This document shows, in pieces, positions 22,651-41,994 of a DNA stretch of 62,528 nt. The position numbers were made by a program, and so were the translations under genes. Numbering within the stretch: position 1 is the stretch's first letter; every line of letters begins with the position of its first letter. The notes under the pieces were generated by a model that did not search any database, was not told the DNA's origin, and saw only the letters and a program-made list of their open reading frames with translations. The stretch is from positions 1-62,528 of the IMG/VR virus record IMGVR_UViG_3300010885_036529; one strand, 5' to 3'. The DNA comes from a virus.

Positions 22651-24063
22651 ATGCTACTTGACGTACAACAGAGAGGGACGAACCTCACCATTTCGTATTA
22701 TGATAAAGACGGAGTCACTAATTACAAGCAATACAAAATAGCCCAAGTTGCAAACTGGGAAGTATGCGAAGAAAAGGACAAGAATAAATCAGATCAATTT
22801 CGCAACTGGGATGGAAGATCTGTAAAGAGAGCAGCATCAAAAAGCTTAGACAAATATTCTCTCATCCAATTTATAGATGAACTTTCTTTCGAAGAGACCG
22901 AAGAGATCTTCGGTTATAATTTACCAAAGACTTATTTTGTCGATATAGAGGTTGAAGTTAAAGACGGATTTCCAGAAGCTGAAAGAGCGGATACTCCGGT
23001 TACTACTATCGCAATTGTAACTCCTAATGCACAAGCCATCGTATTAGCAACAGGAGATCTTCCACAAGATCAACAGCAGAAAATACAAAATGATGTAGAT
23101 GAATACTTCAAAGAAAAAGGAGTAAGATTCAGTTTTGTTTATAAGAAATTTGATTCTGAATACGATCTTCTCTATACTTTCTTTAAGTCTTTCATGTCTA
23201 AGTTTCCGATGGTGACTGGATGGAACTTTATCAATTTTGACTGGAAGTATCTGGTCAATAGAGCATCTAAGTTAGCAATAGATCCAGCGATTGCAAGTCC
23301 AGTCGGAGAACTCTGGGGAAAAGAGAATCTTCCTCTCCATGTTGGAATGATGGACTATCTAGAACTCTATAGAAAATGGGACCGTTCAGATTTCATCAAA
23401 GAGAATTTTACTCTAGATTCTACAGCCGAAGCGGTAGTAGGACTTAAGAAGATCAAGTATAACGGTACAATTCAAGATTTGTACGAGAAAGAATACACAA
23501 AATACGTTTATTATAATGTGGTCGATACTTGTCTTGTATATCTCATCCATCAGAAGTTGAGGACTATGGATATCGCATTGACGATAGCTACAATGTGTCG
23601 AATAGGAATCTACAAAGCAGCAAGTCCGGTCTCAGTGACTGAAGCTATGATCTGTAGAAAGTTTCTAGCTCAGAATAAAGTAATGGCGAGAGACTTTTCT
23701 GGTGATTCTAAAAAAGATTCTCAATACGCTGGAGCTTATGTAAAGTCACCGGTTGTAGGAATGCATCGAGCAGTAGCATGTTTTGACTTTGCTTCTCTAT
23801 ACCCTTCTATCATGAGACAGATTAATATCAGTCCTGAATCGTTCATCAAGAAGATCGATCCAATAGAAGCCCAAAAGGAGAAAGGTCCAGACAAGATCGT
23901 TTCAGTAACTGGAGCAATCTACAAGAAGGAAGATTCGATACTTAAGAACATTCTAACAGAACTCTATACCAATCGTAAGGAATATAAGGGAGAATCTAAG
24001 AAGTATCAAATCGAGGCTGATAATCTTAAAAAAGAAATTGAGAAGCTTAAAAAAGAGATATGA
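22651..24063 (+). CDS. 43: Family B DNA polymerase, N-terminal part (exonuclease and palm motif A)
   Basis: 470 residues. The 3'-5' exonuclease motifs are intact: ExoI 'FVDIEVE' (97-103), ExoII 'GWNFINFDWKY' (190-200) and ExoIII 'YYNVVDTCL' (287-295). Polymerase motif A 'CFDFASLYPSIM' (378-388) is present. The protein stops after a helix 'LYTNRKEYKGESKK' followed by Lys/Glu heptads, which aligns with the first fingers helix of T4-type gp43 ('FNQRKEHKGY' in RB69). Motifs B and C are missing and lie in the gene at 28723, so the polymerase is split at the tip of the fingers. No intein residues are seen at the break. Confidence 0.9.
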   Translation: MLLDVQQRGTNLTISYYDKDGVTNYKQYKIAQVANWEVCEEKDKNKSDQFRNWDGRSVKRAASKSLDKYSLIQFIDELSFEETEEIFGYNLPKTYFVDIEVEVKDGFPEAERADTPVTTIAIVTPNAQAIVLATGDLPQDQQQKIQNDVDEYFKEKGVRFSFVYKKFDSEYDLLYTFFKSFMSKFPMVTGWNFINFDWKYLVNRASKLAIDPAIASPVGELWGKENLPLHVGMMDYLELYRKWDRSDFIKENFTLDSTAEAVVGLKKIKYNGTIQDLYEKEYTKYVYYNVVDTCLVYLIHQKLRTMDIALTIATMCRIGIYKAASPVSVTEAMICRKFLAQNKVMARDFSGDSKKDSQYAGAYVKSPVVGMHRAVACFDFASLYPSIMRQINISPESFIKKIDPIEAQKEKGPDKIVSVTGAIYKKEDSILKNILTELYTNRKEYKGESKKYQIEADNLKKEIEKLKKEI

Positions 24064-24145: not shown

Positions 24146-24174
24146 GTCCTCTTCGAAAGATGGAGGACTTTTTT
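24146..24174 (+). terminator. Intrinsic terminator between polymerase part 1 and NrdB
   Basis: GTCCTC (24146-24151) pairs with GAGGAC (24163-24168) followed by six T. An alternative inner pairing CTT/AAG exists. An ATG at 24160 lies within the hairpin and is not a credible start. Confidence 0.8.
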
Positions 24175-24201
24175 ATCGTCGCACAATTAAAAAAAAAGAA
24201 T

Positions 24202-25167
24202 ATGGAGAAAATTCTCATTGAACAACCTAATCGATTCGTGCTCTTTCCGATAGAGCACCAAGACATTTGGCAGATGTACAAAACAGCAGAAGCAAGCTTT
24301 TGGACCGCAGAAGAGGTAGACTTATCTCAAGACTTAGTAGATTGGAGAGAGAAATTGACAGAAGATGAAAAACACTTTGTTAAGCATGTACTCGCTTTCT
24401 TTGCCGCATCTGATGGTATAGTCAATGAAAATTTAGGAGTGAACTTTCTTTCTGAGGTACAATATGCAGAGGCTCGTTGTTTTTATGGATTTCAGATCAT
24501 GATGGAGAACATACATTCAGAAGTGTATTCACTCTTGATTGATACTTACATTACTGATAGTTCAGAAAAAGACTATCTCTTTAACGCACTAGAAACGGTA
24601 CCTGCAGTAGGCAAGAAAGCTGAATGGGCTTTACGTTGGATCAATAGTCCAGAATTCGTAGAAAGACTTATCGCTTTTGCTGCAGTAGAAGGTATTTTCT
24701 TTTCAGGTAGTTTCTGTTCTATCTTCTGGTTGAAGAAAAGAGGATTGATGCCAGGACTTTCTTTTTCAAATGAATTGATTTCAAGAGACGAAGGAATGCA
24801 TACAGATTTTGCATGTCTTCTCTATCGCAACCACATTCAAAACAAATTAAGCAGAGAAAGAATTCTAGAAATTCTAGATTCTGCTTTAACTATTGAAAAA
24901 GAATTCATCACCGAAGCTCTTCCAGTTAGACTCATCGGAATGAATGCTGATCTCATGAAGCAGTATTTAGAATTCGTAACAGACAGACTTTTGGTCTCTC
25001 TAGGCTATGACAAAGAATACGGATCTAAAAATCCATTTGACTTCATGGAAAATATCGCTTTAGAAGGCAAGACTAACTTCTTTGAAAAGAGAGTTGGTGA
25101 ATACCAAAAGTCAGGAGTACTTAACAAGACAACAGATGAGACTTTCTCATTTGACACAGATTTCTAA
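24202..25167 (+). CDS. nrdB: Ribonucleotide reductase class I, small (radical) subunit
   Basis: 321 residues from ATG 24202 ([17 protein letters not shown]), the usual N-terminus of the family; the earlier ATG at 24160 is inside a terminator. Iron ligands and the radical region are visible in '[11 protein letters not shown]', '[22 protein letters not shown]' and '[12 protein letters not shown]'. The C-terminal 'TFSFDTDF' is the tail that docks into the large subunit. With NrdA it converts ribonucleoside diphosphates to deoxyribonucleotides. NrdA follows after 13 bases, so the pair is an operon. Confidence 0.95.
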
Positions 25168-25180
25168 AATAAAAAGAACA

Positions 25181-27598
25181 ATGTACGTAATTAAAAGAGA
25201 CGGAACGAAGGAACTCGTGAAATATGATAAAATCACGAACAGGATTAGAAAACAGACTTATGGTCTAAATACAGACTACGTAGACGCATTAGAAGTAGCT
25301 AAGAAAGTTATCCAAGGAGTTCATGACGGGGTGAGCACGGTTGAATTAGACAATCTAGCAGCAGAGACTTCTGCGAGCATGACTTCTATTCATCCAGATT
25401 ATTCAACTTTGGCCTCAAGAATTGGAGTTACTTCTTTGCATAAGGGAACCAAAAAGTCGTTTTATGAGACAATGAAAGATCTCTATGAGTACGTTGACCC
25501 TAAAACAGGAGAGAATGCTGGTATGATCAGTGATGAAGTTTTTAAATTCATCGAAAAGAATAAAAATGTAATAGAAGAAGCTATCAACTATGATAGAGAT
25601 TTCAATTACGATTATTTTGGCTACAAGACATTAGAAAAAAGTTATCTTTTAAAAACATACGGCAAGCCGATTGAAAGACCTCAACACATGTTGATGAGAG
25701 TATCATGCGGAATCTGGTATGGCAATTTAAAAGAAGCTCTTGAGACTTATGAACTTCTTTCACAAGGTCTTTTTACACATGCTACACCGACATTATTTAA
25801 CGCAGGAACTAAGAAGCCTCAACTGTCTTCTTGTTTCCTATTGATGATGAAAGATGATTCACTAGAAGGGATCTATAAAACATTATCAGACAGTGCAATG
25901 ATCTCGAAAAATGCAGGCGGCATAGGTATTCACATACATAATGTCAGGGCTAAAGGTTCATATATTAAAGGAACAAACGGAACATCTAATGGCCTCATAC
26001 CTATGCTGAAGGTCTTTAACGAAACTGCTAGATATGTAGATCAAGGAGGAGGAAAAAGAAAAGGTTCTATTGCTGTTTATTTAGAACCTTGGCACGCAGA
26101 CGTCATGGATTTCTTAGACCTTAGAAAGAATCACGGTAAAGAAGAGATGAGAGCAAGAGACTTATTCCTAGCACTGTGGATACCAGATCTTTTCATGCAG
26201 AGAGTAGAAAATGACGCAGATTGGACCCTCTTTAGTCCAAGCGAAGCTCCTAATCTTCATGAAAAATACGGACAAGAATTTGAGGAGCTTTACGAAAAAT
26301 ACGAACAAGAAGGCAAAGGTAGAAAGACAATTAAAGCTAGAGAAGTCTGGCAAAAGATACTAGAATCTCAAATTGAGACTGGAACTCCTTATATGTTGTA
26401 TAAAGATGCAGCAAACAAGAAGAACAATCAGAAAAATCTAGGAACTCTTCACGGCAGCAATCTTTGCACTGAGATCATGGAATACACGAGTGCAGACGAG
26501 ACAGCTGTTTGTAATTTAGCTTCTATAGCTCTCCCTAAATATGTTGACTATCCAACAACAAAGAGACAAGACAAGACAAAAAGAAGTTTTAACTATCAGA
26601 GACTTTATGACGTTACTTATCAGATCACAAAGAACTTGAACAAGGTAATTGACGTGAACTACTATCCTATCCCAGAAGCTAAAAATTCTAACATGAGACA
26701 TCGTCCCATTGGAATAGGTGTACAGGGAATGGCTGATCTTTTTGCTATCTTAGGTCTACCTTTTACTTCAGAAGAAGCTAAAAAGATGAACAGAGAGATA
26801 TTTGAAACGATCTATTTTGCATCTCTTACAGCTTCTAAAGATTTAGCTAAAAAAGAAGGAGCTTACGAATCTTATCCAGGAAGTCCTATTTCAGAAGGTA
26901 TTTTCCAATTTGATATGTGGGGAGTAACTCCTACTACGAGATGGGATTGGGATAGCTTACGTAAAGATGTCCTAAAACATGGAGTTAGAAATTCTCTTCT
27001 ATTAGCACCAATGCCAACTGCATCAACTGCACAGATACTCGGTAACAACGAAGCATTTGAAGCTTTTACTTCTAATCTTTATAAGAGAAGAACTTTAGCA
27101 GGAGAATACACAGTGGTTAACAAATATTTAGTAGAAGATCTAATTGAAAAGAATCTTTGGAGCGAAGAAATGAGGTTAAGACTTATTGCAAATAAGGGAT
27201 CAGTCGTAGGGTTAGATCAAATCCCTGCAGAGCTCCAAGAAGTTTACAAGACTGTATGGGAAATGAAGCAAAAGGACATAATTGATATGTCATCAGAGAG
27301 AGGAGCTTTCATTTGTCAAAGTCAAAGCTTGAACCTCTTCATTGAAAACTGTAACCCTGCTAAATTGACATCTGCTCATTTCCATGCATGGAAAAAAGGA
27401 CTAAAAACGGGAATGTATTATTTGAGAACTAAAGCAGCCACAGAAGCTATCGCAGGATTAGGGATCGATATGGATTCTATTAAGAAAGCAACTTTATCAC
27501 ATCCTGCAGACAAACCTGCAGTCGTAGAGCAGAGCATGGATGACGCGCTGGCTTGTTCTTTAGACAATCCTGACGCATGTGAAATGTGTAGTGGATAA
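25181..27598 (+). CDS. nrdA: Ribonucleotide reductase class Ia, large subunit
   Basis: 805 residues from ATG 25181 ([20 protein letters not shown]); a frame opening at 25082 overlaps NrdB and lacks family similarity in its first 33 codons. An N-terminal ATP cone (1-85) suggests allosteric activity control. Active-site residues are visible in 'QLSSCFLL', the finger loop '[10 protein letters not shown]' and '[17 protein letters not shown]'. The C-terminal 'CEMCSG' provides the swinging redox pair. No intein or intron interrupts it. A nearly gene-free 70 bp follows before the Hc1-like gene. Confidence 0.95.
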
Positions 27599-27977: not shown

Positions 27978-28736
27978 ATGGAACTGAAAATTAAAAAAAT
28001 CAATGGTATCGAATTCCAGACGTTCGTAAAGAAGTTGCTTTCGATTGACAAGTTTATCTTTATGAAGATATCGGCTGATCAAGTCACATCTTCAGTGTAC
28101 CTTCCACAGAAGGATGCGGTAAAGCTTACATCTCTTAAAACATCTGAAATGTTTGAGATAGAAGAACCTGCAAAAGCACCGATCAAGATCTCTTTCTTTA
28201 ACGGTAACAAAGTTATCGATGCTCTTTCTCATTTTGGAGAAGAACTTTCTGCTAAGATTACTTACCAAAAAACAGGAGATGATCTAGTAGCTACAGACTT
28301 TACAATTCAAGATGAGAATTTAAAGATCAATCTTTATTGCGCAGATCCAAGTCTTAACTTTATGGAGATGACAGATGAAGAAATCAAAAGAGCATTCGGC
28401 GCAACTGGAAAAGTTTTCAGCTTTGAACTTCTTACTGTACATGTAGATAAAATGAAGTCTCTCTTCAAATTAGAAGATGACAAAGAACTCTTTAAATTCA
28501 AAGTTTCTGACAAAGGAGTACATGTATCAGGAGAAAGATATGATGCAGTACTTACTCACCAGGTCGAAATACACGATGAGAGCGTAACTGAAGTTAGCAT
28601 CTACAAAAAGTATATTCCGATTCTCGATAAAGAGAACTATAAAGTAGTAGTATGCGAAAATAAAGTTATTTTTAGATCTCTGGACACCAACACTGTTCTT
28701 ACGGTTGCGGTAGCCATAACAGATGATAATGAGTAA
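27978..28736 (+). CDS. 45: Sliding clamp, gp45-like
   Basis: 252 residues (T4 gp45 228). The overall pattern is that of T4-type clamps: N-terminal 'FQTFVKKLLSIDKFIFMKI', 'KISFFNGNKVIDALSHFG' and a repeated beta-alpha layout ending in 'VIFRSLDTNTVLTVAVAI'. As a trimeric ring it tethers polymerase to DNA and, in T4, activates late transcription with gp55 and gp33. It directly precedes, and overlaps by 14 bases, the C-terminal half of the polymerase, so clamp and polymerase part 2 should be co-translated. Confidence 0.75.
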   Translation: MELKIKKINGIEFQTFVKKLLSIDKFIFMKISADQVTSSVYLPQKDAVKLTSLKTSEMFEIEEPAKAPIKISFFNGNKVIDALSHFGEELSAKITYQKTGDDLVATDFTIQDENLKINLYCADPSLNFMEMTDEEIKRAFGATGKVFSFELLTVHVDKMKSLFKLEDDKELFKFKVSDKGVHVSGERYDAVLTHQVEIHDESVTEVSIYKKYIPILDKENYKVVVCENKVIFRSLDTNTVLTVAVAITDDNE

Positions 28737-29871
28737 AAGAGAAAAACTGGCTGAATTACAAGAAAGACTTGCAATAGTAGAATTTGAGGCTCAGAAATAT
28801 TACAACTTTGAACAAGCTGTAAAATTGATGCTAAACTCTATCTACGGAGCATTCGGTAACGAATGGTTCTACTTTTTCAATGTTGATATTGCGGAGACTA
28901 TTACCCTTCAAGGGCAAGACGCAATTCTACATACTGAAAAAATGATTAATAAGTACTTTCAAGAATTCTGGAGTAAAGACAAAGAAGTCCATGCTAAAAT
29001 GGGAATAGAGATCACCGGGCAGGTTAGAAAACCGATGGTCATCTATATTGATACAGATTCATGTTATTTAAGTTTCCAAGAAGTTCTAGAAAATTGTACA
29101 TGGACCGGAAGTGAAAAGGATTTTGTTCTTAAATTGTATGAGTATCGCTTAGCAGATTTTAATGTTAAAGTTCTTGAAAAATACGCAAAAGAGCTAAATG
29201 CAGATAATTTTCTAGATTTTGAACTTGAATCTATCGCCAAGAATGCAATATGGTTGGCGAAGAAAAAATACATGCAAAATATCGTATGGAAAGATCCAAA
29301 TATCCATTACGAGTCTTTAAGCAAAATTAGTGCCAAAGGGTTTGAGATTATTCAATCAAGTACTCCTCTTTTTGCAAGAACAAAACTTAAAGAAGTTCTC
29401 AAATTTATCTTCTCTGTAGAGAAAGTAGAACTTGGTGACATAGTTGCTCTTCTCAAAAAGATCAAAAGAGAATTCAAACTTGCTAACACTGAGCATATTA
29501 CTTTTAACGTTAGAATCAATAACTACAGAAAGTACATCGTCTCAGATTATAAAGATTTTGAAATTGCTTCAGGTTGTCCAATCCATATCAGAGCAGCAGG
29601 GTACTATAATTATTTACTGAATAGCAGTAAACATAAAAATAGGTACAAGACTCTTACAGATGGAGAGAAAGTAAAGTACTACATAAGTAAAGATAAAGCT
29701 TGCAATGTTTTCGCATTTCCCCCTGGAGAATTTCCAATTGAATTCGCTCCAAGCGTAGACCATGATGCACAGTTTGAAAGATGTATGATAGACCCGATCA
29801 ATAGGGTCATTGATGCAATGGGCTTAGGAAAGCTAGACAGAAATTTGGTGTACTCCTCATCAGTTTTCTAG
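28723..29871 (+). CDS. 43: Family B DNA polymerase, C-terminal part (fingers helix, palm motifs B and C, thumb)
   Basis: 382 residues from ATG 28723; ATG 28729 (MSKREKLAELQERLA) is an equally good start. It begins with a charged helix equivalent to the second fingers helix, then motif B 'KLMLNSIYGAFGN' (34-46) and motif C 'IYIDTDSCYL' (107-116), then a thumb domain with 'FEIIQSSTPLFAR' and 'CPIHIRAAGYYNY'. Together with the part at 22651 it makes 852 residues, close to the 898 of T4 gp43. It has no exonuclease domain and no motif A, so it cannot be active alone. The gene overlaps the clamp gene. Confidence 0.9.
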   Translation: MIMSKREKLAELQERLAIVEFEAQKYYNFEQAVKLMLNSIYGAFGNEWFYFFNVDIAETITLQGQDAILHTEKMINKYFQEFWSKDKEVHAKMGIEITGQVRKPMVIYIDTDSCYLSFQEVLENCTWTGSEKDFVLKLYEYRLADFNVKVLEKYAKELNADNFLDFELESIAKNAIWLAKKKYMQNIVWKDPNIHYESLSKISAKGFEIIQSSTPLFARTKLKEVLKFIFSVEKVELGDIVALLKKIKREFKLANTEHITFNVRINNYRKYIVSDYKDFEIASGCPIHIRAAGYYNYLLNSSKHKNRYKTLTDGEKVKYYISKDKACNVFAFPPGEFPIEFAPSVDHDAQFERCMIDPINRVIDAMGLGKLDRNLVYSSSVF

Positions 29872-34937: not shown

Positions 34938-35852
34938 ATGAAGTTTGGAATTTACAAATTAGATCTACCTACTATCTCAGACACTGGCTTTTTCAGAGTA
35001 GATTATACGATAGAAGACAAGGGAGATCAAGAATGTAAATTAGAATTCGAAATATTCGATACTGCTTTCAATTTAAGTTTTTTCAAAATAGAAGTAACAC
35101 CCCCATCTGAGGGGTGTTTTTTCGTTGGTTATGATACAGGTGGCTGGTATGGGATAAAATTTGGATTCAGGATGGTGGTCAAGTGTGACGGAGAAATCAT
35201 ACATGATAGGGTCTATGATTATTGTCCTTTAGCTTGGTTGGATTCTCTAAGAGATAAAACTTGCTGGCTAATAGGAGATTCTCATTGCGATAGTACTTTT
35301 GGTCAAGAGCCGAAGATAGGAGATTTTAATTTCACTAGAATTAGAACCACTTCTCTATCCCTGAACAGATTTCTCAATTCTGACTATCTCAGGTTTCTTA
35401 GAAGATGGCCGATCAAAAGAGAAGACATCATCGTCTTTCATCTAGGTGAAATAGACTTTAGATATGCAATTCACAGATACGTTGAAAAACATGATAAAGA
35501 GACTTTTGATGCATGCAGCGAACTCTTACAGAGATACTTAAAATTTCTTATCGAAACAAGAGCACAGTTTCCCTATACAAGGATAATAGTAACCTCTCCA
35601 GTTCCGCCTATGAGAGATGGATTTTTGAAAGATCTCATATCGGGAACTGAAGAAAATAGGAAGCTTTGTTGGAGTTTATTTGATTACTTCTTTCGAGTTC
35701 ATGAATTTGAGTATCTTGATTGGACTGAAAGTTATAGATTGAATGATAGCATGGTGGACACTTCTAAACTGATGGAAAGAGATCACCACATCGAAAACTA
35801 CGCTGAAGCTCTTGAAGAACTGACTCATAAAATAATAGGCAATGGCAAATAG
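34938..35852 (+). CDS. SGNH/GDSL hydrolase-like protein
   Basis: 304 residues. An N-terminal beta domain (1-105) is followed by an SGNH-type core: block I 'WLIGDSHCDSTF' (110-121) with the candidate nucleophile Ser115, a block III-like 'FHLGEIDFR' near 175, 'IIVTSPVPP' near 217, and a C-terminal 'RDHHIEN' containing the usual Asp/His pair. Such proteins cleave O-acetyl or other esters on glycans or proteins. It is inserted, without gaps, between the metallophosphoesterase and gp47. An intrinsic-terminator-like hairpin lies inside its 5' third (35096-35122). Confidence 0.6.
   Translation: MKFGIYKLDLPTISDTGFFRVDYTIEDKGDQECKLEFEIFDTAFNLSFFKIEVTPPSEGCFFVGYDTGGWYGIKFGFRMVVKCDGEIIHDRVYDYCPLAWLDSLRDKTCWLIGDSHCDSTFGQEPKIGDFNFTRIRTTSLSLNRFLNSDYLRFLRRWPIKREDIIVFHLGEIDFRYAIHRYVEKHDKETFDACSELLQRYLKFLIETRAQFPYTRIIVTSPVPPMRDGFLKDLISGTEENRKLCWSLFDYFFRVHEFEYLDWTESYRLNDSMVDTSKLMERDHHIENYAEALEELTHKIIGNGK
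35096..35122 (+). terminator. Terminator-like hairpin inside the SGNH hydrolase-like gene
   Basis: AACACCCC (35096-35103) pairs with GGGGTGTT (35111-35118), a perfect 8-bp stem with a 7-base loop followed by a T run. It lies about 160 bases inside the coding region. It may attenuate downstream gp47/gp46 transcription, or be a coding coincidence. Confidence 0.55.
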
Positions 35853-36903
35853 AATAATTTTCTCATCGGATTGGCACTTTGGAATAAGATCAAATAATCT
35901 CGAATGGTTTGAGATCGCAAAAGATTATTTCGAGAATTTCTTTCTCCCTTGGCTAGACGATAATGTAAAAGAAGGGGATGTCTTTTATTGTCTAGGCGAT
36001 GTTTTTGATAACAGACAGACGATGAATCTCATGGTAGCCAGTTATGCGATAGATCTATTTGAGAGAATAGGACAAAGACTTCCAGTCTATATTATCGTAG
36101 GTAACCATGACATCTACAGAAAAAATTCAAATGACATCTCATCTGTTGATATTCTTAGACATATTAAGAATGTGACAGTGTACAAAGAACCTGAAGTACA
36201 TACTTTCGGAAAGACCAAATGTCTTTTAATGCCGTGGAGAAGAGATAAAGAGCACGAGAAAGAGACCCTAAACTCTTACAAGAAAATAGACTACGTCTTC
36301 TGTCACTCTGAGGTAAGAGGATTGAGAGTAAACCCAAATCCTTATGTCATTCACGAAGGTGGCAATTCTGTAGAGATCTACGAAGGTTACAAAGGAATGT
36401 ATTCGGGACACATCCACTATTCTCAAAGAAACAAGAACGTGACTTTCGTTGGAAACATCTTCCAAATGACACGTTCAGACAGAAATAACTCGAAAGGTAT
36501 CTGGACTCTAGAACCTGAAAAGGGCGTAGAGACTTTTGTAGAAAATAATCACTCTCCTAAATTCATCAAGTACAGCATCGAATCTCTTTTTGAAAAGACG
36601 ATTGATGAATTAAGAGAAGAGTTCAAAAATAATTTTATCGACATAAAGGTCGATAGAACTACATTTTCAAATTATAACGTAAGTCTCTTACTTAACTTGC
36701 TAGAAGGATCAGCGAGAAGCATACAGACTGAGGTCTTTGAAAGAGATGAAGACTCAGAAAGTGAAATAGAGGAAATGTCAAATGATTACGACATCATGAA
36801 TATTTCAAGAAGATTAATTGATTCTAGTAATTACGACGAAAAAATAAAAGAAAGATTGTTAACATCGGTAGAATCACTCTACCAAAAGGTGAACCAAGAA
36901 TGA
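35842..36903 (+). CDS. 47: gp47-like nuclease subunit (SbcD/Mre11 family)
   Basis: 353 residues (T4 gp47 339). Phosphoesterase motifs are intact: 'FSSDWHFGIR', 'FYCLGDVFDNRQ', 'IIVGNHDIYR', 'YVFCHSEV' and 'MYSGHIHYSQ'. With gp46 it forms the complex that resects ends for recombination-dependent replication and degrades host DNA. It overlaps its neighbours by 11 and 4 bases (ATGA with gp46). Confidence 0.9.
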   Translation: MANRIIFSSDWHFGIRSNNLEWFEIAKDYFENFFLPWLDDNVKEGDVFYCLGDVFDNRQTMNLMVASYAIDLFERIGQRLPVYIIVGNHDIYRKNSNDISSVDILRHIKNVTVYKEPEVHTFGKTKCLLMPWRRDKEHEKETLNSYKKIDYVFCHSEVRGLRVNPNPYVIHEGGNSVEIYEGYKGMYSGHIHYSQRNKNVTFVGNIFQMTRSDRNNSKGIWTLEPEKGVETFVENNHSPKFIKYSIESLFEKTIDELREEFKNNFIDIKVDRTTFSNYNVSLLLNLLEGSARSIQTEVFERDEDSESEIEEMSNDYDIMNISRRLIDSSNYDEKIKERLLTSVESLYQKVNQE

Positions 36904-38567
36904 AAATAAACAGAATAGAATTCCGCAACTTTGCATCCTACGGAAATAAGATCCAGTCTATCGACATGGAATCAGAAGGATGCTTGCATCTAATAACAGG
37001 TAATAATGGGAACGGTAAAAGCACGATAGCAAATATCATTAAGTTCTTATGCTATGGAAAAGTAGATGGGTTCACCAATTCTGATCTTCCCAATAGAATT
37101 AATAAAGAACTTTGGGGTAGAATCTTCTTGGAAGCCAAAGGGAAAAAGATAGAGATAGAAAGAGGATTAGCTCCATCTGTTTTCAAAGTAAAGATTGACG
37201 GAGTAGATTTCGATCAAGCTGGTAAGAATAACGTCCAAGAATATTTAGAAGAAGAACTTTTCGGGATCAATGCTAATGTCTTTAAGAATCTAATCATACT
37301 CTCAATAAATGATTTCAAGTCATTTTTAACGATGTCTCCTGGAGATAAAAAGGCAATTGTCGATAAAATCTTCGGCTTCTCTGTCATCAATCAGATGTTA
37401 GAGATCGTGAAGAGAGAAAAGAGAGAACTTAAATCTAGCATCAAATCTATCGAGGACGAACTTTCAGCAATTACAGATTCAATCGCATCTACTCAAAGGA
37501 AATTAGAAGTACTAGAGAAGAATGCAAAAGAACAAAATGCTGAGAAGATAGAAGAGTTAAAAAAGAAGCTCTTAGAACTCGCGGATAGCAAAAGTAAATT
37601 AGAAGAAGCAAAGAATACGATCAAGAAACAGCAAGGTGATAAAGAGAACAGTTTAAAAGAAGATCGTAAAGCTCTAATTAGCAAAGAATCTAATAAGAGA
37701 AAATTAGAGAAAGAATTAGAGCTTTTTAAAAATGACCAATGCCCTACATGTCATGCAGATCTAAAATCAGATTTTCACCAAGGTCTTAAAGAACAGCTTC
37801 AGAATGAAAAAGATTCTAACGAAGAAGATCTAAAAACGATCAGAGAAAAAGTAACAGGCGTTGAGAATGAGATTAAAGATATCAGAGCAAAAGAGACAAA
37901 AGTAATTACTAAAATATCTGATCTAAACAGTAAGATACAGGGTTTCAAATCTGAGCTTCTTGAATTGGCGAAGAAGATGGACAAAGGAGAGCATAAAGAA
38001 TTCAAATCTCTTATCGAAGAATTCCAACAAAAAGAAAGAAATAAGACTACAGATAAAACAGGACTTACTGCAGAAGAGCATTATGTAGGAATCTTAGAGA
38101 ACATGCTAGGCGACGACGGGATAAAGAACATGGCGATGAAGATGATTCTACCCTCTCTTAATGCTAATATTTCTCAAATGACCAGACGTCTTGGGATACC
38201 TTTTAACATCTCTTTCGATAATAAATTCGATTCTGTCATAACTCATCTAGGAGAAGAGGTCAATCCAAAGACTCTGAGCACGGGAGAGAGAAAGAAAGCT
38301 GACTTTGCGATCATCATGTCCTTGATAAAAATGATGAAAGTTAGATTCCCAACACTGAATGTTCTTTTTTTAGACGAGATTTTCAGTTCGGTGGATGGAG
38401 ACGGAGTCTATCATATTTTAGGAATCTTGTATGAGACTATCAAAGAGACAAAGATGAATGCTTTCGTAATAAACCATACAGTTCTTCCTAGCGAGCTATT
38501 TGATAAGAAAATTGAAATAGCCAAGGTTTCAGGCTTTAGTGAGTTATCCACAGAGGTCATCTCCTGA
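36900..38567 (+). CDS. 46: gp46-like ATPase subunit (SbcC/Rad50 family)
   Basis: 555 residues (T4 gp46 560). Walker A 'GNNGNGKST' (34-42), a central coiled coil split by a zinc-hook 'CPTCHAD' near residue 281, the ABC signature 'LSTGERKKADFA' near 460 and Walker B 'VLFLDEIFSSVDG' near 490 are all present. It partners gp47. About 90 bases follow to the next start with a promoter-like GATAAATAAGAA but no clear terminator. Confidence 0.95.
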   Translation: MKINRIEFRNFASYGNKIQSIDMESEGCLHLITGNNGNGKSTIANIIKFLCYGKVDGFTNSDLPNRINKELWGRIFLEAKGKKIEIERGLAPSVFKVKIDGVDFDQAGKNNVQEYLEEELFGINANVFKNLIILSINDFKSFLTMSPGDKKAIVDKIFGFSVINQMLEIVKREKRELKSSIKSIEDELSAITDSIASTQRKLEVLEKNAKEQNAEKIEELKKKLLELADSKSKLEEAKNTIKKQQGDKENSLKEDRKALISKESNKRKLEKELELFKNDQCPTCHADLKSDFHQGLKEQLQNEKDSNEEDLKTIREKVTGVENEIKDIRAKETKVITKISDLNSKIQGFKSELLELAKKMDKGEHKEFKSLIEEFQQKERNKTTDKTGLTAEEHYVGILENMLGDDGIKNMAMKMILPSLNANISQMTRRLGIPFNISFDNKFDSVITHLGEEVNPKTLSTGERKKADFAIIMSLIKMMKVRFPTLNVLFLDEIFSSVDGDGVYHILGILYETIKETKMNAFVINHTVLPSELFDKKIEIAKVSGFSELSTEVIS

Positions 38568-38658: not shown

Positions 38659-39624
38659 GTGTCAGCTTATAACGCAGAATTTAACAAGGATCTCTCATAC
38701 TTGAGACATATTATCACAGCTCTATTAAACGAGCTCAACGATAAGATCTATTTCTATAATGTAATAGACGAAGACACCAAGCAGAAAATCGGTGTCCCTT
38801 TCTACTATTCAGTAACTGGTCAAGAAAGATTCTTGCTTGACAATTTTCTTTTTGATAATCTAGCAGAAGGTAAAGCCATCGGAGACTATGAAAAAGTCCC
38901 AAGAGGAGTCATTCAACTGGATTCTTCTACGATAGATTCATCAGCTCTGATCAATAAATTCGTGAGGACGCAGATCATCAGACCCTATAAAGGACAACTG
39001 AAGACTTTCGCTCTCATGACACAGGCGATACCTGTCACTCTTTCTTTTTCAACTACAATTATAGTCAACAATAACATTGAACTTTTCAAAGTCACAGAGG
39101 CTCTGATCTCAAGACTCTACAAGAACAATATTTTCTACGTAGATTATGGCGGATTCCAAGCCCAGTCTAACTTTTCTCTTCCAGAAGATCTAGCTCAAGA
39201 ACAATTATTTGAATATGGTTTCACTGACAGAAAAGAGTACAAGGTGACTTTTACTCTTGAAGTAAAGAGTTTCTTTTACGTATTTGAGAACGACTTACAA
39301 CTCGCAGAAATCCCGATGCAGGTCAGAGAGACTTCAAACAATTCTAAATTGTCAGGAGTCGGTGTTTATAGTGGAGACGGGATATATTTCGGTAACGTCA
39401 TGGAAAGAATTGAAAATACCATAGACGATTACAAAAAAGCACCTTATACCAATGGATCAGTTAGCAACACCGGCTACAATAATTTAGCCGATCCTACTGG
39501 AGGCTTTGCTCCAACGGGCCCGACGTTTTCTGAAACTATCGTGAAACCTGTAACTATAAGCAGTGAGGAATCATCTGACAGCAAAGAGTACAGAAACGCT
39601 AACAATTCTAATCCTCAGACATAG
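38659..39624 (+). CDS. 15: Tail sheath stabiliser / tail completion protein, gp15-like
   Basis: 321 residues from a GTG start (T4 gp15 272). The N-terminal 'LRHIITALLNELNDKIYF' followed by 'GVPFYYSVTGQERFL', and later 'AIPVTLSFSTTIIVNN' and 'LFKVTEALISRLYKNN', follow the layout of T4-type gp15 proteins, which cap the tail tube and sheath and join it to the head. The C-terminal 60 residues are Gly/Ser/Thr-rich and disordered. It starts a late gene block. Identity is inferred from pattern, not a search. Confidence 0.55.
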   Translation: MSAYNAEFNKDLSYLRHIITALLNELNDKIYFYNVIDEDTKQKIGVPFYYSVTGQERFLLDNFLFDNLAEGKAIGDYEKVPRGVIQLDSSTIDSSALINKFVRTQIIRPYKGQLKTFALMTQAIPVTLSFSTTIIVNNNIELFKVTEALISRLYKNNIFYVDYGGFQAQSNFSLPEDLAQEQLFEYGFTDRKEYKVTFTLEVKSFFYVFENDLQLAEIPMQVRETSNNSKLSGVGVYSGDGIYFGNVMERIENTIDDYKKAPYTNGSVSNTGYNNLADPTGGFAPTGPTFSETIVKPVTISSEESSDSKEYRNANNSNPQT

Positions 39625-39661: not shown

Positions 39662-41425
39662 ATGGGATATCCAGTCTATCTAAACGGTCACTTTCCTAGC
39701 GCAGCAGAAACTGCAGCATCGAAAGACACCTTAACAGTATTAGTCAATGAGTTCAGAAAGAGCGGCAAGACTGATGCGCAAATATTCAGTATCCTCATGG
39801 GTATGGGAATTGCGCCAGAAAAAGTAGCAAACAACCTCCAGGGAATACCGGAGAAACCTGCAACACCTGCCGAAATCGCTACTCAAAATGCAGCTAGAAC
39901 TTTTTTACAAGTACTAAGCGTAGAAGAGAACAATAACACACAAACAAAAAATACAAACATGAAGTTTTCAATCGAGAATCTCAACAAGAAGATTCAAGAA
40001 ACAAAGCTGGCTGTCGAGGAACTCGATGCGGCTAACTCTGGAAAATACGGCTTCTCTGTTAAGAAGATCAAAGAAAGTATTGATGCTTCTCTTGCAGCTT
40101 TAGACGTAGAAAAGGCAGCAAGTCTCCTTAAATCCATCGACACTACAAACAAGTCTCTAGAAGATTCTAACATGAACAAAGCTAGTGCAGAAGCAGAGCT
40201 TTCTAAATTGAAGAAGCAAGCTCTAGCTATCACAGAGAGAAAGAACATTTTCGAAACTGTTAGCGTATTAAGACAAAAGCTTCATGAGCATGCTTGGATC
40301 GAATCAGTAAAAGAACTTTGTCTTCACATCGACGAAATGAAAAATCAAAACAGATTTTCAATGTACTTGATGGAAGCTCTTCACAATATGAGAAATGATA
40401 GATTCAACGCATTCAACGTTAAATCAGTTGAAAAAGTTGAAACCATGATCGAAGAAGGTGAAGATTATATCAGAGAAAACTATTCTGAGTTAAAACCTTT
40501 CTCTTGGTCAATGCCAATTAGAAATGCAGTTGAAAAAATTGCAACTACTCTCAATGAGATGAAAGATACTCAAGCTGGAGCACTTAAGAAAGTATTTAGT
40601 CCAGTTCAAGAGAACGCAGACGGTTCAGTAACTATCGCTCTTTCTGGTAAATTCTATGCAATAACTGAAAGCGGAATCGCTGAAGTGAACGAGTCACAGA
40701 AGCCAGAAATGAGATTCTTAAAGACTTTGGATGCTCTTTCAATCTTCTCTATCGTTGGTGAAGGTACTGCTCCTTTCGCAGGTACAGTATTCAATTACTA
40801 CGGTAAGAGAAATACTTTAAGCATTAATGAAGGCAAGGTATATGTAGGAAGTGCAATTCTAGAAAAACATACACCAGAAGCAATCATGTTTGCTCTACAG
40901 GAAAACACTTTAACTTCTAGCGATGCTGCAGTTAAAGCTGAAAAAATTGCTTTCTTAATTGAATCTTTAGATACTATTAAAGAGATCGATCTTTTCACTT
41001 CTATCATCTCTAAACAGAGACAAGGTATTACCGTAAACATTGCTAAAATGAACGAAAACATTTTCGTTAATAGAATCAATACTGCAATGGGTTGTAACGA
41101 AATGATACAGGTAAAGAGCGCTAAAGTGGCTCAAGAACTCGTAAATGAATTCTTAAACTTCGATATCACTCCAATGGTTCAAGAAATGTTGACCAATGAA
41201 GAGAAGCATGTATTTGATCTTCAAGAGAAGAAAAAATCTCTACAAGAAAGCATCAATACTTTCGAGAACAAGAAGAAAGAAGTAATCGCTGCAATGGGAA
41301 TGAATCCAGAAGCAGAACAACTTAAAGAAGCTTTCTCTATCATAACTAACAATATCGAAACTACGGAAAAGGAACTCCAATCAGTTTATCATCAAATTTC
41401 TGAACTTACAGAAAAAAAAAGATAA
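39662..41425 (+). CDS. Virion-associated coiled-coil protein with probable -1 frameshift extension
   Basis: 587 residues from ATG 39662 (MGYPVYLNGHFPSAAETA), 31 bases downstream of a late promoter element; a frame opening earlier at 39563 lies inside the previous gene. The N-terminal about 95 residues are a small helical domain. An A-rich stretch coding NNTQTKNTN precedes Met100 (ATG 39959), which could be an internal start for a 488-residue form. Coiled coils occur near 105-205 and 520-580. The gene ends in A9 then GATAA; the -1 frame continues openly to 41616. Function unknown; late promoter and neighbours suggest a structural role. Confidence 0.65.
   Translation: MGYPVYLNGHFPSAAETAASKDTLTVLVNEFRKSGKTDAQIFSILMGMGIAPEKVANNLQGIPEKPATPAEIATQNAARTFLQVLSVEENNNTQTKNTNMKFSIENLNKKIQETKLAVEELDAANSGKYGFSVKKIKESIDASLAALDVEKAASLLKSIDTTNKSLEDSNMNKASAEAELSKLKKQALAITERKNIFETVSVLRQKLHEHAWIESVKELCLHIDEMKNQNRFSMYLMEALHNMRNDRFNAFNVKSVEKVETMIEEGEDYIRENYSELKPFSWSMPIRNAVEKIATTLNEMKDTQAGALKKVFSPVQENADGSVTIALSGKFYAITESGIAEVNESQKPEMRFLKTLDALSIFSIVGEGTAPFAGTVFNYYGKRNTLSINEGKVYVGSAILEKHTPEAIMFALQENTLTSSDAAVKAEKIAFLIESLDTIKEIDLFTSIISKQRQGITVNIAKMNENIFVNRINTAMGCNEMIQVKSAKVAQELVNEFLNFDITPMVQEMLTNEEKHVFDLQEKKKSLQESINTFENKKKEVIAAMGMNPEAEQLKEAFSIITNNIETTEKELQSVYHQISELTEKKR
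41412..41420 (+). promoter_or_regulatory. A9 slippery run, candidate -1 ribosomal frameshift site
   Basis: In the zero frame it reads GAA AAA AAA AGA TAA, giving an A AAA AAA heptamer two codons before the stop. A -1 slip joins the open frame to 41616. Confidence 0.55.
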
Positions 41426-41616
41426 ATGAGGCTCTCAATCCTGATGAAGCTTTCGTGATAGTCGCGCAAAACGAGACAAAACTGAAGGCGGGCGATAAAA
41501 TAATAGTCAACGCTAATGAATATGCAAAGTCTTCTGATTCACAGGAGATTTCATACAGAACATTAGAAGGTGACAAAGGAACAATACTAAGACAACACCT
41601 TAAAGCGCAGATCTAA
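41419..41616 (+). CDS. -1 frame extension of the 39662 gene (65 residues)
   Basis: After a -1 slip the frame reads KINEALNPDEAFVIVAQNET... and ends in GTILRQHLKAQI at a stop that directly abuts the gp55-like ATG at 41617. The sequence has beta-strand/turn character (LKAGDKIIVNAN) like a small SH3-type barrel. The only in-frame start codon, GTG 41455, would cut the first strand, so fusion by frameshifting fits better than a separate gene. The fused product would be about 651 residues. A sequencing error in the A9 run, which would make it a plain longer gene, cannot be excluded. Confidence 0.55.
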   Translation, partial: KINEALNPDEAFVIVAQNETKLKAGDKIIVNANEYAKSSDSQEISYRTLEGDKGTILRQHLKAQI

Positions 41617-41994
41617 ATGAAAGCAAAAGTAGAAAAACCCTTTTATGTAAAACCTAAAGAATTTTACGAAGAGATCGTAATTTCGAAGAAACAAGACACC
41701 TTGACTCCTAGAGCCCAGGAAATGATGATAAAAATTGCAAACAAAGCCAATCAAAGGCTTGTTTACAAGAACCCAGAAGATAGAAAGGACTGCATTGCTG
41801 CAGCTTACTTAGATCTTCTAAAATATTGGAGAAGCTTCAATCCAGAAAAAGGAACGAATGCTTTTGCATATTTTACAGAAATAGCGAAAAGAGGGTTCGC
41901 CAAAGGCTGGAACCAAATTCACCCTAAAAAGTACAAAGGTACCATTAGCATGGACAGCCACGGAGACGACTCTGAGGGCATATACAGCATCTAA
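41617..41994 (+). CDS. 55: gp55-like late sigma factor
   Basis: 125 residues (T4 gp55 185). The central segment 'DCIAAAYLDLLKYWRSFNPE' followed by 'NAFAYFTEIAKRGFAKGWNQ' matches the region 2-like helices of gp55 ('IADGIEASIKGLHNFDETK', 'NPHAYITQACFNAFVQRI'). Such factors replace the host sigma on RNA polymerase and read a short -10-type late promoter with the clamp as activator. The likely target here is the recurrent (G/A)ATATATAGA element. It starts directly after the stop of the frameshift extension and overlaps the next gene by one base. Confidence 0.75.
   Translation: MKAKVEKPFYVKPKEFYEEIVISKKQDTLTPRAQEMMIKIANKANQRLVYKNPEDRKDCIAAAYLDLLKYWRSFNPEKGTNAFAYFTEIAKRGFAKGWNQIHPKKYKGTISMDSHGDDSEGIYSI

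Follow-up and report, generated by a model that had tools for sequence, protein, structure and literature searches.

The locus and its two reading frames

The window, by which we mean the whole stretch of 62,528 bases analysed here, is a record from the T4-like huge-phage group, and its portal protein shares 65% identity with the one encoded by the metagenomic phage LR756500.1 (462 kb). The gene under study, called gene A here, sits in a late cluster with genes for a gp15-like protein, gp55, head completion, end protection, portal and protease, the head gene encoding a head closure (completion) protein and the end-protection gene a DNA end protector. The features around gene A are collected in Table 1.

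Table 1. Features at and around gene A in the window.
Feature	Position	Strand	Basis or remark
gp47/gp46-like recombination genes	35842–38567		Named from their own sequences
gp15-like tail sheath stabiliser	38659–39624		Weak Pfam match
Gene A, zero frame, short form, 587 aa	39662–41425	+	ATG at 39662; homologues; AlphaFold2 model
A9 slippery run (GA AAA AAA AA in the zero frame)	41412–41420	+	Exactly nine A; A9/A10 in 32 contigs
Zero-frame stop TAA, one codon past the run	41423–41425	+	Out-of-frame lineages all stop 1–3 codons past the run
−1 frame extension, 65 codons (41419–41613) plus TAA, SH3-like	41419–41616	+	Purifying selection, alignment, model, Foldseek
gp55-like late sigma factor	41617–41994	+	PHROG 234, E 2.8e-12

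The zero frame of gene A ends GAA AAA AAA AGA TAA, just after a predicted C-terminal helical hairpin, and within the A9 run the heptamer A_AAA_AAA lies in phase at 41413–41419. The −1 frame is open from 41404 to 41616 without an ATG and its TAA (41614–41616) adjoins the ATG of gp55 at 41617. A slip from the zero frame into the −1 frame at the run would give a product of 651 residues (...LTE-KKK-INEALN...LKAQI), among whose predicted tryptic peptides is INEALNPDEAFVIVAQNETK. The Rfam search returned no match. Only two runs of nine or more A are found in the 62.5 kb of the window, at 41412–41420 and at 24189–24197.

The second of these runs lies 5 nt 5′ of an ATG at 24202, the likely start of nrdB, and A-rich leaders ahead of an ATG also occur in L023 (2026 and 7261) and L027 (4805); together they fit A-rich initiation regions. 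In the same part of the window a family B DNA polymerase is apparently split over two open reading frames, the first (22651–24063, 470 aa) of exonuclease type and the second (28720–29871) containing the palm with YIDTDS at 29044. Between them lie nrdB- and nrdA-like genes (24160–27598) and one more open reading frame; the names of the polymerase parts and of the genes between them were given by eye.

For gene A itself no family match and no significant fold match in the PDB was found. A model made with AlphaFold2 without the extension is of modest confidence (pLDDT 73, pTM 0.36) and predicts a helical N-terminal half, two beta regions and the C-terminal helical hairpin (residues 503–586). For the extension the model shows a barrel of five strands and one short helix (pLDDT 88.7, pTM 0.73), the predicted strands beginning at about 41446. 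The best PDB matches in Foldseek were SH3 domains, with a probability of 1.00 and TM scores mostly of 0.55–0.67, the best E-value being 0.018 and none below 0.001. A match to Pfam SH3_13 fell under the curated cut-off (18 of 41 bits) and serves as a hint only. From the model, the extension is predicted with good confidence to be an SH3-like barrel, a fold call from which no family follows.

A preliminary description of this DNA had read the zero frame as ending at the A9 run, followed by a −1 frame without an ATG whose stop adjoins the start of a gp55-like gene, and had proposed a 65-residue C-terminal extension ahead of the late sigma factor. Frames and coordinates were borne out, the match to PHROG 234 supports the gp55-like identity, and the compact beta domain that it had suggested agrees with the predicted barrel.

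The junction in relatives

The same junction carries A9 or A10 in relatives as distant as about 25% identity and none of the 32 contigs, 26 out of frame and six in frame (the L077 clade), has a shorter run. Counting the window, A9 is present in 27 and A10 in four of 31 contigs, and L123 adds one A9. As all 32 have A9 or A10, a sequencing error or a single fused frame does not agree with them. The out-of-frame state occurs in six lineage groups, the direction of the shift being −1 in all six. The preliminary description had looked to relatives for conservation of the run and of the −1 frame, and both were found, the −1 frame being under purifying selection.

The closest relatives, L002, L003, L004 and L005, are 83, 79, 71 and 71% identical to the window in gene A; their runs are of 9, 10, 9 and 9 A, with the stop one codon on and an open −1 frame of 65 codons. 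Near-copies from other metagenomes (L006, L007, L010 and L016) have A9 as well. In the window clade the dN/dS of the −1 frame is about 0.2 (nearest five) and changes at positions 1, 2 and 3 of its codons number 106, 105 and 268. Further away, L023 (37% identity) and L024/L052 (34%) have A9 and a homologous extension, with zero frames ending AGC TAA and AGT TGA respectively.

While the extension alone as query retrieved no relatives in the first viral scan, an alignment query did find them; a search of genome contigs gave no relative. A profile search brought in three further groups. In L092–L098 the junction reads ACA AAA AAA AAC TCT TAA and the extension has 64 codons, in L106/L107/L050 the run is A10 and the extension has 162–166 codons, and in L111/L112/L123 the run is A9 and the extension has 209 codons, a later stretch of which resembles the extension of the window by eye. 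In the L106- and L111-type groups the run interrupts a different KOW/SH3-like stretch, which by eye is completed by the first part of the −1 frame. The dN/dS of the −1 frame in these three groups is 0.15–0.33, save for one very close pair with few changes (0.65). With A9 or A10 at the homologous junction and a −1 frame under purifying selection, a chance origin of the junction is excluded. Reassignment of the TAG stop in L111 was also considered and rejected, as a zero frame read through it would soon hit a TAA. A second A9 is present inside the −1 extension of L106 (5068–5076) and L050 (3691–3699), about 200 nt past the first run; its flanking codons differ between the two, and L111 has an extension-type domain there instead.

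The window-type, in-frame, L092–L098-type and separate versions of the extension form one alignable family. L077–L083 encode the domain in the zero frame and nevertheless retain A9 at the same junction (GAA AAA AAA ACT AAA); the −1 frame gives KKN followed by a stop, and the +1 frame is closed a few codons further on. We infer from these frames that both forms could be reached by slipping here too, the long form being the default and the slip truncating it. Retention of the run in this reversed arrangement suggests that selection there acts on having both forms and not just on having the domain. The extension is homologous to the C-terminal domains of this clade and also to those fused in frame without a run of nine in L075, L026, L076 and L108 (L029 is arranged like L075, and the alignment of L075/L029 to gene A has statistics identical to that of LR756500.1), as well as to a separate gene with its own ATG in L100, an arrangement found in L021/L022 too. 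The fused relatives show that two forms are therefore not always required.

The domain is absent from L008/L009, L028/L091, L030, L044 and L084–L089. As L008/L009, with neither run nor extension, fall inside the clade of the window on the tree, some phages can do without the arrangement. L027, L100, L102, L103 and L105 end in another in-frame domain (VAGQEYTVKGTTGYVFQGEADGSYMFNQKD in L100, for example); domains thus seem to be exchanged at the C-terminus in the gene A family. A tree built on the gene A core requires four changes for the out-of-frame state and five for the run, and an origin of either in one clade is rejected by the AU test; the tree is unrooted with long branches and fits several gains or an ancestral state with losses. 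Gene A was unrecognisable in the structural cluster of Tenacibaculum phage PTm1. The homologue in Lak phages has about 1,686 aa (code 15), and no run of eight or more A was found in or just after the gene. In L114 and L115 (Prevotella phages Lak-B5 and Lak-C1) it is thus about threefold longer than usual, and KOW/SH3-like stretches were recognised by eye towards its end.

How the two forms may be made

Conservation of the run, of the frames and of selection on the −1 frame across lineages leads us to propose two C-terminal isoforms produced by conserved −1 recoding. That gene A is subject to programmed −1 recoding, whichever machine slips, is very probable on these comparisons. Reading in the zero frame would give the short form, ending right after the helical hairpin, while in a share of the product the register would shift at the A9 run into the −1 frame and so add the SH3-like domain. 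No start codon in the −1 frame is consistent across lineages. Both forms are presumably made, with slipping as the route, and the mixture itself may be what is selected, for instance for a mixed-subunit assembly or so that a minority of subunits carries a binding domain.

The preliminary description attributed the shift to the ribosome. It also took the product for a virion protein, although gene A gave no family or fold match, and the long form for the minority; either may hold. Its −1 recoding with a conserved run stands; the ribosome as the slipping machine does not stand in the same way, since slippage by RNA polymerase fits at least equally. We see an even chance of slippage by RNA polymerase at the run, with one A added to the transcript, and hold this slightly likelier than a ribosomal slip; a small remainder falls to neither. 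Transcriptional slippage needs a homopolymer of about nine or more, and every run has 9 or 10; nine is also the length at which selection against runs shows in many genomes (Baranov et al., PMC1088944). Lineages differ in whether the first A of the run occupies codon position 2 or 3. It is because the runs are always of at least nine, their register varies and a shared stimulator was not found that we lean to transcriptional slippage.

A strictly ribosomal −1 frameshift, by tandem slippage of tRNA-Lys on A_AAA_AAA, is a serious possibility to which we give somewhat less than an even chance. The heptamer that the preliminary description had pointed out is in phase in the window and in every run of each lineage, the zero-frame stop is close to the run, and the direction is −1 in all out-of-frame lineages; a constant direction of shift among orthologues has been taken as a ribosomal sign (Antonov et al., PMC3711429). 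The heptamer needs only seven A, however, and in all lineages the runs are 1–3 bases longer than a ribosomal slip would require. AAG would interrupt the run and is common in these genes (AAA makes up 51–65% of the Lys codons in eight of them), yet neither Lys codon of the site is ever AAG. The 30 nt upstream of the run contain no SD-like element, and downstream folding in the window clade equals that of shuffled sequences (z about 0), though hairpins in L023 and L024 begin some 20–37 nt downstream of the run. Such stimulators, a downstream structure or an upstream SD-like element, are usual but not obligatory for −1 ribosomal frameshifting.

It is very improbable that the extension is instead a small gene of its own, with translation beginning at a non-canonical start or through termination and reinitiation at the run. 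The domain does have its own ATG in L100/L021/L022, L004/L005 and L024/L052 show a TTG after the run, and in L023 there is an ATG nine codons into the frame, but the codon at the would-be start varies by lineage (ATA, ATA, TTA, TTG, CTA, TTG or CTC) and L003, L092–L098, L106, L050 and L111 have no ATG, GTG or TTG within the first 20 codons. It would also leave the conservation of A9 unexplained, including that in the in-frame clade. Phase variation, in which slippage during replication would toggle fused and truncated alleles, is a shade less credible still: DNA polymerase does slip on poly-A and such a switch is known elsewhere (PMC3711429), but no in-frame allele was seen among the 26 out-of-frame contigs, and the L077 clade, with six in-frame contigs, has A9 throughout. 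The in-frame fusions in L075, L026, L076 and L108 might suggest a homopolymer miscall or a recent frameshift in a once-fused gene, which we regard as scarcely conceivable given the agreement among contigs from many metagenomes and given that stops beside the run and a selected −1 frame, across lineages of high synonymous divergence, leave no room for an event that is recent or due to chance.

Possible link to gp55 and comparison with known systems

The stop of the long form lies −1 to +8 nt from the ATG of gp55 in all out-of-frame lineages tested, whereas relatives that lack such a shift have 11 to 1,401 nt there. With the stop at the gp55 start, ribosomes finishing the long form would be brought to the late sigma factor gene for its translation. 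That the slip acts as a dosage valve, its rate helping to set the synthesis of the late sigma factor and tying it to the output of gene A, is an idea that we hold rather unlikely. As overlaps between genes are frequent in the genome of the window, the coupling is offered as a hypothesis only. Strong hairpins followed by UUUUUG are found inside the extension of L023 (3810–3880, z −6.8) and L024 (3848–3890, z −5.5) and, placed between gene A and gp55 with their U-rich stretch, are intrinsic-terminator-like. Terminator-like hairpins, identified by eye, also follow gene A in L028, L030 and L044, which have no extension.

Both the addition of C-terminal beta domains to phage proteins by recoding (PMC5009743) and A9 slippage in dnaX (PMC1088944) are already known. 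Frameshifts add Ig-like C-terminal domains to head or tail proteins in phages T3 and Lactobacillus A2, and are described in the coat and tail genes of Listeria phage PSA (PMC5009743). As is proposed for gene A, a single gene there yields two proteins that differ by a beta domain at the C-terminus, and both in-frame and out-of-frame versions exist among phages (PMC5009743). Gene A differs in its SH3-like domain, in a carrier of unassigned function, in the 9–10 A with no stimulator found, and in that the run is kept even where the domain is fused in frame. In Thermus thermophilus dnaX, transcriptional slippage occurs on A9, the templated frame giving the long product and slipped RNA the short one through a nearby stop (PMC1088944). 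L077–L083 would resemble this, having A9 near the C-terminal part and a slip that shortens, whereas window-type genes have the opposite polarity, the slip extending the product, and belong to a phage rather than encoding a polymerase subunit, RNA slippage being one candidate mechanism for them.

In lambda gpG/gpGT and its phage counterparts a −1 shift near the 3′ end adds a domain from the next frame, and the ratio of the products matters for assembly (PMC5009743). Gene A shares a −1 shift near its 3′ end that adds a domain, but the gene, slip sequence and domain are different and a tail chaperone role is without support. In Shigella spa13, slippage gives a C-terminal extension that ends over the start of the next gene and affects its expression (PMC5009743). 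The end of the extension meets the start of the next gene in gene A also, though spa13 is a type III secretion gene and the coupling to gp55 in the window is only inferred. A limited search of full-text literature found no report of gene A, of such an addition of an SH3-like domain or of its occurrence in huge phages, which is weak evidence of absence.

Judged from the sequence comparisons, the recoding of gene A is real and conserved over great distances, and the way its architecture changes is unusual. For this uncharacterised family of genes in huge T4-like phages it predicts two products, and in all out-of-frame lineages the extension domain would escape gene callers. The relatives offer a natural series, in which the slip extends, the slip truncates, or the domain is fused, is encoded as a separate gene or is absent, so that the value of having two forms would be testable.
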